Assembly (NCBI RefSeq): GCF_937129525.1
Contig: NZ_CAKZNK010000051.1
Span: forward strand, 1 to 64,000
DNA from: an uncultured Chloroflexus sp.
GTDB taxonomy: Bacteria; Chloroflexota; Chloroflexia; Chloroflexales; Chloroflexaceae
Direction: 5' to 3'
DNA: 64,000 bases
Shown here: in pieces, positions 2,635-35,917 of the stretch
Position numbering within the stretch: position 1 is the first letter of the stretch
How the letters are laid out: every line of letters begins with the position of its first letter
Notes under the pieces: generated by a model
Seen by the model: only the letters and a program-made list of their open reading frames with translations
Told to the model about the DNA's origin: nothing
Databases searched by the model: none
Position numbers and translations under genes: made by a program

Positions 2635-2776
2635 AAAGAGTATCAAGCCGGAAGCAAGTGGTGATTGAAGGGGTTGGCGATAGCGCAGGTGTTGTCCTGG
2701 CAGACTGGTATTTCCGACTGGCGAAACCAGCGAGAGCGTTTTTCAGACAATTTTTTGACTTCTATGCAAAAAATGC

Positions 2777-2805
2777 ATGCTAAAAGCGTCACAGTATGGT
2801 ATAAT
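2777..2805 (+). promoter_or_regulatory. candidate sigma-70 promoter
   Basis: A perfect TATAAT lies at 2800-2805 in an AT-rich stretch downstream of the preceding terminator. The -35 position 17 bases upstream (ATGCTA) matches poorly. It would transcribe the structured leader and the small gene that starts at 3011, giving an untranslated leader of about 200 bases. The intergenic region 2559-3010 contains the terminator, this promoter and the leader structure, and no other gene that I can support. Confidence 0.5.
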
Positions 2806-2891
2806 AGGCAAACAAGAATAAAAATAGCCATTTACAGTTAAACAGGTTAGAAGCAGCTAGCCGGAAGACTCTGGTTGCAACTTGTCTGACA

Positions 2892-2953
2892 AGGGTCAGT
2901 ACACTGGTGAAACGATAAGAGAGGGTCTCTGCACCACTGCCTGTTCTGACCCT
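2892..2953 (+). promoter_or_regulatory. nested stem structure in the leader of the 3011 gene
   Basis: Three nested inverted repeats fall in order: AGGGTCAG (2892-2899) with CTGACCCT (2946-2953), TGGTG (2905-2909) with CACCA (2932-2936), and AGAGA (2918-2922) with TCTCT (2926-2930). Together they would fold as one elongated RNA hairpin. As DNA they form an imperfect palindrome that could be a protein-binding site. It matches no riboswitch family I recognise. Confidence 0.5.
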
Positions 2954-3010
2954 GGTTTCGCTGCAAACACCTGACACGAGATCGGACAATGAGTGCGAGG
3001 AGCCAGCGTT

Positions 3011-3436
3011 ATGTACATTCGCTGGGTAGTACGGCGGCACAAAAATGCCGAGATAGCCAATACCAACTTCTATGATGCTTATCTGGTCGAAAGTTATCGT
3101 GATGAGCGCGGCCAACCGCGCCAGCGCACAATTGCCTATCTCGGTAATATCCGGCAGATCGGGGGGGAATTTCCGACGATTGAACGAGAGTTGTTTTTAC
3201 TCCGCGCCGATCGCATTCTAGACTCATTGCCTGACCTTACTGAGCAAGACCGGCAAGATGCGCGCGCAGCATTGCGGCGCAAAGTGCCGCCATTGAATCG
3301 CGATGAGGTCATTCGCGGCTTTACCGCCAACCTGAGCTGGTATCGTCGCTGGTGGGAACAGAATGGCAATCCACTGAGCGATGAAGAAGTTTTGAGTATT
3401 GTGCGGTCGACGCGAGGAGATATTGGGCCAATTTAG
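3011..3436 (+). CDS. small protein resembling the N-terminal domain of IS1634/IS4-type transposases
   Basis: The 141-residue protein starts at ATG 3011, where GAGGAG sits 8 bases upstream; the earlier GTG at 2993 has no such site. Its first 45 residues, with YLVESYRDERGQPRQRTIAY followed by LG, resemble the short domain at the N-terminus of IS1634-like DDE transposases. The rest is charged and helical, with a WYRRWWEQNG motif near residue 117. No DDE catalytic domain follows and I see no terminal inverted repeats, so this is either a domesticated DNA-binding fragment or an independent small family. It is followed 67 bases later by a receiver-kinase gene on the same strand. The function is unknown. 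Confidence 0.7.
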   Translation: MYIRWVVRRHKNAEIANTNFYDAYLVESYRDERGQPRQRTIAYLGNIRQIGGEFPTIERELFLLRADRILDSLPDLTEQDRQDARAALRRKVPPLNRDEVIRGFTANLSWYRRWWEQNGNPLSDEEVLSIVRSTRGDIGPI

Positions 3437-3503: not shown

Positions 3504-5006
3504 ATGGAGCAAAACATTGTCCTTATCGTCGATGATGATGAGCAGATGCGATTGCTGCTCATTGAAATTATGGCCCATCTGAATCTCCGCCTGCTCGCTG
3601 CGCAACGCGGTGATCAGGCCTTGCAATTGGCGCGCCAGTACCAGCCCGATCTCATCCTGCTCGATGTGATGATGCCGGATATGGATGGGTTTGAAGTTTG
3701 TCGGTTGTTGCGCGACGATCCCAAACTGGCGCAGATCCCGGTTGTTATGATCACCGGTTTGCATGATCGCGAAGCCAAGTTGCGTGGTTTTGAGGCCGGC
3801 GCTGATGAGTTCATTACCAAACCGTTTGATCCTGGTGAGTTACAGGCGCGCATCAACACGGTATTGCGGCTCAACCGCTATCGACGACTCCTCAATGAGC
3901 AGGCGCGGGTTAATGCTGAACGGGCGCGATTTGAGTGGGTAGTAGAGAAATCTGACAATGCCTATCTGATCATCAATCGCAACGATCAGATTGTCTACGC
4001 CAATCCCCGCGCGCGCATCTATCTTGGTCTAGGGGCTGATGAACCGCTGGCTCAGCCGTTTCGCGCGCTGGCCGCGCATCGTTATCGACTGGCGCCGCCG
4101 GAGGCATGGGAGAACTGGCCAGATTCAACCGATCTTCAACGTTTTCTTGTGCATCCCGAAACCTTGCGCAGCGCCGAACAGTGGCTTAGTGTTGAGACCG
4201 CCGTCGTTCATCCAGTCGATGATCAAATTGTCGTGACGATCCGTGATGTCACGGCGCAAATTACCGCGCAACGTGATATGTGGACGTTTCACACCGTGAT
4301 TTCGCATAAACTCCGCACGCCGCTGGTGAGTATTATTGGCGGATTAAACATCTTACACGACAATATGGATCAGATCGATCGCGCGATTGCCCGCAATATT
4401 GCCTCAATCGCGTTAAGTGGCGCGCATCGCTTGCAACATGCGATTGATGATATTTTGCATTATGTGCGTAGTCCTGGTGATGCCCATCACATGGATACCT
4501 GTACAGTGTTTGATTTACCCACGTTGCTGTCATCGCTCAGCCAGGATTTAGGTATGCAGACGGTCAGCGTCTATCTTGATCCAGCGCTTGATACACGACG
4601 TTTACGCATTTCGCGTCGCAGTCTGGAAGTAGTATTGCGGGAATTGTGCGAAAATGCTATCAAGTTTCACCCAAATCATTCGCCAGGTGTAACGGTGCGG
4701 GTCGATGCCGATCTCGCGCGCGATCAGGTGCGTTTGATCTTCTGTGACGATGGCATCCATTTGCCGCCCGATCAATTACGGAAGGTCTGGCAACCTTATT
4801 ATCAGGCCGAGCGCAGTTTCACCGGACAGGTCGAAGGCATGGGGTTGGGTCTAGCGCAGGTGGCGCGGGTTATTCTGGCAGTTGGCGGTAGCTATCAAAT
4901 GCGCAATCGGCCCGACCGACCGGGCATTTGCGTTGAGCTGCGCATCCCCTTCGCTGAGGAGCAAGCGCAAGGCTCAGTGATTGGCTTGACGGAGCTGTCA
5001 AGTTGA
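3504..5006 (+). CDS. response regulator receiver-PAS-histidine kinase
   Basis: This 500-residue cytoplasmic signalling protein begins with a complete receiver domain (about 5-120): acidic pocket VDDD, phosphoacceptor Asp54 in LLDVMMPDMDG, Thr84 and Lys106. A PAS-like domain covers about 140-250. The H-box has His268 in ISHKLRTPL, and an HATPase_c domain follows with N-box LRELCENAIKFHP and G2 box GMGLGLA. The G1 box reads DDGIHLP, so the second glycine of the usual DxGxG is a histidine. There are no membrane segments. The receiver-first layout suggests it takes phosphate from another kinase and tunes its own kinase activity. GGAT lies 7 bases before the ATG. The partner regulator is not identifiable here. 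Confidence 0.88.
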   Translation: MEQNIVLIVDDDEQMRLLLIEIMAHLNLRLLAAQRGDQALQLARQYQPDLILLDVMMPDMDGFEVCRLLRDDPKLAQIPVVMITGLHDREAKLRGFEAGADEFITKPFDPGELQARINTVLRLNRYRRLLNEQARVNAERARFEWVVEKSDNAYLIINRNDQIVYANPRARIYLGLGADEPLAQPFRALAAHRYRLAPPEAWENWPDSTDLQRFLVHPETLRSAEQWLSVETAVVHPVDDQIVVTIRDVTAQITAQRDMWTFHTVISHKLRTPLVSIIGGLNILHDNMDQIDRAIARNIASIALSGAHRLQHAIDDILHYVRSPGDAHHMDTCTVFDLPTLLSSLSQDLGMQTVSVYLDPALDTRRLRISRRSLEVVLRELCENAIKFHPNHSPGVTVRVDADLARDQVRLIFCDDGIHLPPDQLRKVWQPYYQAERSFTGQVEGMGLGLAQVARVILAVGGSYQMRNRPDRPGICVELRIPFAEEQAQGSVIGLTELSS

Positions 5007-5066: not shown

Positions 5067-5921
5067 GTGCGAATTGCCATTACCGGAGCAAATGGGCAAT
5101 TGGGCCGCGCCCTGATTGCGGCGCTGGCCGATCATCACGAGATTGTGGCCTTGAGTCACGACCAGCTTGAATTGGCCGAACCGGCAACCGCCGATCAGAT
5201 TGCTGCCACTGGCGCTGATGTAGTGATCCACGCTGCTGCTTATACGAACGTCGATGGATGCGCGCGCGATCCCTTGCTGGCATACCGGGTCAATGGCCTG
5301 GGAACTCGCTATGTTGCGCTTGGCTGCCGTCGAATTGACGCGGCGCTGGTTTATATCAGCACCAATGAAGTGTTTGCCGGTGATGCGCAGCGGCCATACC
5401 TGGAAGACGATCTGCCTCGTCCGATTAATCCTTATGGTCAGAGCAAACTGGCCGGCGAGCAGGCAGTGCGCGCGTTGTGGCCACGCCACTTTATCGTGCG
5501 GGTAGCCTGGCTGTTTGGCGGCGAGCGCAATTTTGTCCGCACAGTGCTGCGATTGGCGACTAACCCGCCTGCCGATGGATTGCGAGTGGTAGCTGATGAA
5601 ATTGGGAGTCCGACGTATACCGTTGATGTGGCAGAGGGGTTGTCGCGCTTGATTACGACCGACTATTACGGCACGTATCATTTTGTCAACGATGGCATCT
5701 GTTCGCGCTACGATTTTGCCGCCGAGATTGCGCGGCAAGCCGGAATAGAGGTGTCGATGCGTCCGATCCGGTTGCGCGATTTTCAGCGTGACAGCACGCC
5801 GCCGCCTTACACGCCGCTGGCCAATGTCGCCGGAGCGGCGCTCGGTATCACGTTCCGGTCGTGGCAGGCTGCGCTCGATGATTATCTTTCTCGTTTGCGA
5901 CGCGAGTCTGCATTGCTATGA
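5067..5921 (+). CDS. rmlD: dTDP-4-dehydrorhamnose reductase family (RmlD-like)
   Basis: This is an NAD(P)H-dependent short-chain reductase of the RmlD substrate-binding family, which makes dTDP-L-rhamnose in the last step of that pathway. The N-terminal Rossmann motif ITGANGQLG and the catalytic NPYGQSK (YxxxK) are both present, and the length of 284 residues is normal. GTG 5067 was chosen because AAGGAG lies 7 bases upstream and it places the Rossmann strand at the N-terminus; the upstream TTG at 5046 adds seven non-conserved residues. The gene overlaps the next glycosyltransferase by 4 bases. No rmlA, rmlB or rmlC is present in this window, so the exact sugar product is inferred. Confidence 0.85.
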   Translation: MRIAITGANGQLGRALIAALADHHEIVALSHDQLELAEPATADQIAATGADVVIHAAAYTNVDGCARDPLLAYRVNGLGTRYVALGCRRIDAALVYISTNEVFAGDAQRPYLEDDLPRPINPYGQSKLAGEQAVRALWPRHFIVRVAWLFGGERNFVRTVLRLATNPPADGLRVVADEIGSPTYTVDVAEGLSRLITTDYYGTYHFVNDGICSRYDFAAEIARQAGIEVSMRPIRLRDFQRDSTPPPYTPLANVAGAALGITFRSWQAALDDYLSRLRRESALL

Positions 5922-35770: not shown

Positions 35771-35785
35771 ACAAGAAATTCCATC

Positions 35786-35886
35786 CAGGGGAGCCTGGGC
35801 GAACCGGGCTGAGAGGGCGTTTCTGGCCAGTGCCACCGACGCCGACCCTTAGAACCTGATCTGGGTTATGCCAGCGGAGGGAGGAG
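35786..35886 (+). promoter_or_regulatory. TPP riboswitch (THI element)
   Basis: The aptamer core is clear: GGGGAGCC near 35789, GGGCTGAGAGGG near 35807, GACCCTTAGAACCTGATCTG near 35844 followed by GGTTATGCCAGCGGAGGGA. It binds thiamin pyrophosphate in the mRNA. A terminator follows, and the first downstream gene is thiM. Confidence 0.95.
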
Positions 35887-35917
35887 CAGAACGCAGTCCA
35901 CTTTCGGATCTGCGTCA

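Follow-up and report, generated by a model that had tools for sequence, protein, structure and literature searches.

The window, the whole stretch of 64,000 nucleotides from an uncultured Chloroflexus sp. that was analysed here, carries on its forward strand a gene for a conserved protein of 141 amino acids (3011..3436), recognised from the list of open reading frames, an alignment of 29 sequences and a profile match to IS1634 transposases. The protein and its gene are called TnpN and tnpN, names coined in the present analysis. On the same strand the gene is preceded by the 21-bp box GTTTTTCAGACAATTTTTTGA (2738..2758), which lies upstream of the promoter and was identified by a search of same-genus genomes, by an extended -10 element, TGGTATAAT (2797..2805), and by a leader (2812..3010) in which four inverted repeats are nested. 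An intact receiver/histidine-kinase gene (3504..5006, same strand) begins 67 bp after tnpN and was assigned from NCBIfam response-regulator and kinase matches, none of them over its cut-off among the matches listed. A long repetitive surface-type protein is encoded upstream, at 3-2558, and presumably resembles SdrD/Cna-B repeats; its homologue was found upstream of tnpN in 10 of 55 genomes, those in which tnpN is parted from pucC. Elsewhere in the window a TPP riboswitch aptamer was found at 35777-35899 (RF00059, 70.1 bits).

The open reading frame in question is present and ends at 3436. ATG 3011, not GTG 2993, is its start; ATG 3011 is the aligned start in all 29 orthologues and the sequence AGGAG is present upstream of it at 2998-3002, and the length of 141 amino acids follows from these two observations. 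The alignment of the 29 orthologues is nearly gap-free, with a single internal gap of three columns (L060) and ragged ends, and 34 of its 141 columns are invariant. Arginine, lysine or histidine account for 10 of the 34 invariant residues. Residues 1-50 have a mean net charge of about +4, the rest of the protein one of about -5. Values of dN/dS were 0.03-0.06 with dS of about 1 or above, computable in three of six pairs by NG86 and in four by YN00; the calculation failed or was saturated in the other three and two pairs, respectively. The gene is thus under purifying selection. A single copy of tnpN is present in its own genome, and each of 63 matching genomes of the class has it at one place (in G023 as two overlapping pieces at the same place). 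The window protein matched no NCBIfam family at E 1. Searches of the 29 members against Pfam, NCBIfam, PHROGs and PDB profiles revealed only scattered unrelated families, each matched by at most four of the 29 members; the strongest matches, to two NCBIfam families (E about 0.0009, two members each), were taken as chance.

The initial annotation saw in this product only the N-terminal domain of IS1634/IS4-like transposases. Comparison of TnpN with a profile of 12 IS1634 N-termini confirmed the resemblance (hhalign 97.7 per cent) and confined it to residues 24-52, 29 gapless columns that make up one hairpin; the pairwise comparison gave an E of 1.5e-12. In the hairpin stretch the window protein reads LVESYRDERGQPRQRTIAYLG and a Cupriavidus transposase reads LVESYRDDNGQPKQRTVATLG. 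The hairpin is not universal in IS1634: L090, L091, L092 and L114, found in Chloroflexota, begin differently and were left out of the profile for their differing N-termini. A tblastn search with a single TnpN against plasmids returned three records, with E values of 3e-3, 0.02 and 0.4, all annotated as IS1634. On these alignments the similarity between TnpN and IS1634 is real but short, one hairpin only. IS1634 transposases with the hairpin N-terminus (Cupriavidus WP_116323554.1 and ISAzo6 of Aromatoleum) are like TnpN in residues 24-52; unlike them, TnpN is without a catalytic body and occurs as a single copy, and its C-terminal helical part is unmatched. An assignment of TnpN to the IS1634 transposases was rejected, with no match to a catalytic-body model, one copy per genome and a likeness to the hairpin N-terminus of one subgroup only.

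At E 0.001 the NF033559 model found no IS1634 in the window's own genome. No decayed transposase body was found next to tnpN either, the gene 67 bp downstream being the intact receiver/histidine-kinase gene. The intact downstream gene and the lack of an IS1634 match in the genome together uphold the initial description of tnpN as a stand-alone copy. A decaying IS1634 fragment would account for the hairpin similarity, and this explanation has a negligible probability, already refuted by conservation: the gene is single-copy in a genome without a detected IS1634, is under purifying selection and has kept its length and synteny. A transposase remnant was rejected on the same grounds. An origin of TnpN from phages or plasmids was likewise rejected, with no phage match at E 1 and with the three short IS1634 records as the only plasmid matches. 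One distant stand-alone relative, of 126 amino acids, was found in G497 (L133, 1221-1598; hhalign 95.6 per cent over 104 columns). It is like TnpN in having no transposase body in the same open reading frame, and unlike TnpN in that its host genome (completeness 86 per cent, contamination 7 per cent) has neither bchL nor bchX over the cut-off. This protein had no match among plasmids and phages, and no relatives of it or of the 29 orthologues were found on viral contigs. The hairpin would have passed from a transposase to a host protein, not the reverse.

Analysis of the upstream region revealed a conserved block in seven Chloroflexus genomes that runs from 2738 to just beyond the -10 element. 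The box GTTTTTCAGACAATTTTTTGA precedes tnpN in seven of eight same-genus genomes with 0-1 mismatch; the eighth genome (G002, 82 per cent complete) is without tnpN and without the box. Elsewhere in the eight genomes the box was represented by two sites with three mismatches, and a reversed control pattern also gave two sites. The extended -10 element is conserved across the seven genomes, and transcription of tnpN would start at about 2812. A -10-like match of at least 8.7 of 10.4 was found in 48 of 52 distinct tnpN upstream sequences, in a scan that took the best match within 330 nt without a shuffle control. The promoter of its own that the initial annotation gave to the gene is supported by the conservation of both elements within the genus.

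The nested inverted repeats described for the leader are present, and four were found. The outermost arms are TTGCA/TGCAA (2875-2879/2962-2966) and the longest are AGGGTCAG/CTGACCCT (2892-2899/2946-2953), followed inwards by TGGTG/CACCA (2905/2932) and AGAGA/TCTCT (2918/2926). Counted by a measure that was picked after the sequence had been viewed, the leader has 23 exact nested pairs, against a mean of 13.6 and a maximum of 22 in 300 dinucleotide shuffles, none of which (0/300) equalled it; a repeat search at default settings did not list these repeats. A perfect palindrome, CTTGTC-T-GACAAG, is present within the leader at 2881-2893, and no copy of it was found in 12 loci of the bch region with one mismatch allowed.

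The initial annotation proposed that the nested repeats of the leader might form a structured RNA or be a DNA site of the protein itself. The excess of nested repeats over the 300 shuffles speaks for this proposal; however, the remaining evidence is against it, and we consider it very improbable. The predicted stability of the leader RNA is ordinary: its fold had a z of -1.0, with 23 of 200 shuffles as good, and a second run gave a z of -0.34, with 61 of 200. Among the leaders of six species that were folded (G005 was not folded) the structures differ, and G004 alone stands out (z -2.04, 4/200). A BLASTN-type search with 2800-3020 in 61 genomes matched the window itself only, with no match in 60 relatives; TnpN is present in 43 of 61 genomes, window included, the same number of genomes as in the leader search. 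In the alignment of the seven Chloroflexus genomes the leader beyond the -10 element aligns poorly. Rfam searches at two thresholds found in the leader no family at the gathering threshold and one chance match (E 2.1). An RNA family or conserved structure was rejected on the combined results of Rfam, the folding of both strands, the six-species folds and the 61-genome DNA search. Since relatives do not share the leader, neither a structured leader nor a DNA site for the protein itself is supported. The block through the -10 element is conserved and the leader after it is not, so the promoter and the protein look selected and the leader does not. Promoter and protein are what is conserved at the tnpN locus.

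A total of 158 genomes of the class were analysed for TnpN and for phototrophy markers. A TnpN profile match was found in 63 genomes, BchL over the cut-off in 51 and BchX in 61. The gene is present in 61 of 66 genomes with bchL or bchX over the cut-off, against 2 of 92 without (Fisher p 4e-35, a value that ignores shared ancestry). The five marker genomes without tnpN are G002, G014 and G433, which are 72-82 per cent complete, and G058 (92 per cent) and G445 (94 per cent). The two matches without markers are in G438, a damaged piece close to a contig end whose adjoining genes are syntenic with those of relatives, and in G497. Comparison within families revealed both tnpN and markers in only one (G040) of six genomes of family f2, neither in all nine genomes of f3, and in f8 both in G315, markers only in G445 and neither in G442-G444. 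G315, which is probably the type-I-reaction-centre organism Candidatus Chlorohelix allophototropha, has its BchL above the cut-off and its BchX, at 314 bits, just below. We read TnpN as a host protein of phototrophic Chloroflexia, present in single copy and passed on vertically. Seven BchX-positive genomes of another Chloroflexota family, f29, were absent among the TnpN matches of a phylum search, whose sample, judging from their handles, apparently included them, and no tnpN was found in the bch loci, 16 kb each, of five f29 genomes. Phototrophy elsewhere in the phylum thus does without TnpN. Among the 11 genomes of genus g21 (G039, G058, G433-G441), BchX is over the cut-off in 10 and BchL in none; these phototroph-like genomes apparently lack the usual protochlorophyllide reductase. 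That enzyme is likewise reported missing from phototrophic Chloroflexi outside the class Chloroflexia (PMC5826079).

The survey of gene neighbourhoods covered 55 of the 63 class genomes with a match (G424, G434-G438, G440 and G497 were left out). Representative neighbours were assigned by model, with BchF, BchX and BchH over the cut-off, BchC just below (284.1 against 291.25) and PucC as PF03209; the remaining neighbours were assigned by tblastn to representative proteins, and PUCC matches below 35 per cent identity were ignored, with the exception of L084. In 43 of the 55 genomes pucC, bchF or bchH is present within 2 kb of tnpN, in four arrangements: pucC upstream and divergent (30 genomes), bchH downstream and convergent (10), bchH upstream on the same strand (two), and bchF followed by pucC downstream on the same strand (one, G315). 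Such linkage is missing in 12 genomes: seven of Chloroflexus, three of g6 (G012, G034 and G276), and G024 and G431, in which only 309 and 1645 bases are available upstream of tnpN. The linkage is lost in Chloroflexus. The genes tnpN and bchL are on one contig, 7-13 kb apart, in G040 and G425, and tnpN is about 23 kb from bchX in G003, which we take to be C. aurantiacus J-10-fl. The C. aurantiacus genome report places bchF, bchC and bchX at Caur_0415-0417 and does not recognise any cluster of bacteriochlorophyll genes (PMC3150298). For C. aggregans, a metatranscriptome from a hot spring assigns bchF, bchX and bchC to one transcription-pattern group (PMC8004040).

In a rival reading TnpN would work with the downstream two-component protein and with sugar genes (rmlD, glycosyltransferases), its nearness to bch genes being an inherited chromosome order. 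Of 55 genomes, 22 have a two-component homologue downstream of tnpN on its strand and 19 have rmlD near it, and all seven Chloroflexus genomes inspected keep the order of the two, with rmlD beyond 2 kb in G006 as the exception. However, such neighbours are absent in f4, G040 and G315, where bch genes adjoin tnpN instead, and the distribution of tnpN tracks the phototrophy markers. We regard this role as improbable. The two-component gene may still be part of a TnpN pathway where it is adjacent.

Upstream sequences of pucC were collected from matches of at least 55 per cent identity, and 28 of the 31 sequences gave a -10 match. In these 28 of 31 sequences the Chloroflexaceae pucC promoter shows a strongly conserved module, TTGCAC..TTTTGCAAATATTGC at a fixed distance from TATGCTATACT (for example L137, near 4800-4860), which looks like the operator of an unknown regulator. 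Many pucC 5' leaders also show a short inverted repeat, TGTAGT...ACTACA, shortly before the start (for example L047, about 5760-5800), a by-eye reading with apparent variation on both sides. Local alignment of the conserved promoter blocks of tnpN and pucC in six species revealed nothing shared beyond shuffles, the scores being equalled by 111, 126, 155, 428, 232 and 283 of 500 shuffles, and an operator common to tnpN and pucC was rejected on these scores. With the pucC box model, neither the window nor 17 of the 18 loci examined gave a site; the remaining locus, L137, contains a training site.

The predicted model of TnpN (mean pLDDT 89.6) has a three-stranded sheet in residues 2-50 (strands 2-9, 18-30 and 36-50), followed by helices. 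Strands 2 and 3 of this model form the hairpin that TnpN has in common with some IS1634 N-termini. Foldseek comparison of the model with PDB and viral structures gave no match at E 0.001; the viral set included one AP2/ERF entry at E 0.07, and the best hit of a VIA search was CO dehydrogenase (Z 5.0, rmsd 3.8 over 75). These comparisons yielded no confident structural relative, and a fold missing from their lists does not count as evidence against it. The N-termini of IS4-type transposases bind transposon ends. Nucleic-acid binding is the simplest guess for TnpN, given the invariant arginine, lysine and histidine residues, the positive residues 1-50 and the relation to transposases. We put first the reading that TnpN is a DNA-binding accessory regulator of antenna and bacteriochlorophyll genes, with a probability of roughly 0.4. 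It is favoured by the co-occurrence with markers, the nearness to pucC, bchF or bchH, the purifying selection and the hairpin shared with transposases. Against it stand the lack of a found operator and of a DNA-binding structural match at E 0.001, an association confounded by shared ancestry, the missing linkage in Chloroflexus and three g6 genomes, the genomes of f29, G058 and G445 without tnpN, and the G497 relative without markers. As for the domesticated regulator of the initial annotation, the first word is plausible and the second is something we only infer.

Placed second is a role at the protein level, in which TnpN, as an accessory factor, would assist pigment or antenna assembly together with PucC, BchF or Mg-chelatase and use the hairpin as a general binding module. 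The genes beside tnpN code for enzymes and for a membrane protein of the PucC family, no operator is common to tnpN and pucC and no DNA-binding fold was recognised, all of which would suit such a factor; the basic, highly conserved residues 1-50 and the transposase hairpin point instead to nucleic acid, and we hold this role to be rather unlikely though worth keeping in mind. As a regulator, TnpN would adjust pucC-bchF-bchC-bchX or bchH, with DNA binding, targets and direction of control presumed, in some genera perhaps in concert with the two-component protein encoded next to it.

The link of tnpN to phototrophy is new here and goes beyond the initial annotation. A limited search of the literature revealed no named regulator of bacteriochlorophyll genes in Chloroflexota and no description of TnpN. 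A transposase-related domain in a host protein is known, and the tie to photosynthesis appears to be the new element. It is a tentative and somewhat doubtful suggestion that such an N-terminal domain was recruited early in phototrophic Chloroflexia (Chloroflexales and the Chlorohelix-like G315) as a dedicated bacteriochlorophyll and antenna regulator of a kind not described elsewhere. The single-copy tnpN, which tracks phototrophy markers within the class and usually stands beside pucC-bchF-bchC-bchX or bchH, constitutes a concrete candidate regulator and, if the reading is true, would provide an example from bacteria of a domain related to transposases that serves in photosynthesis.
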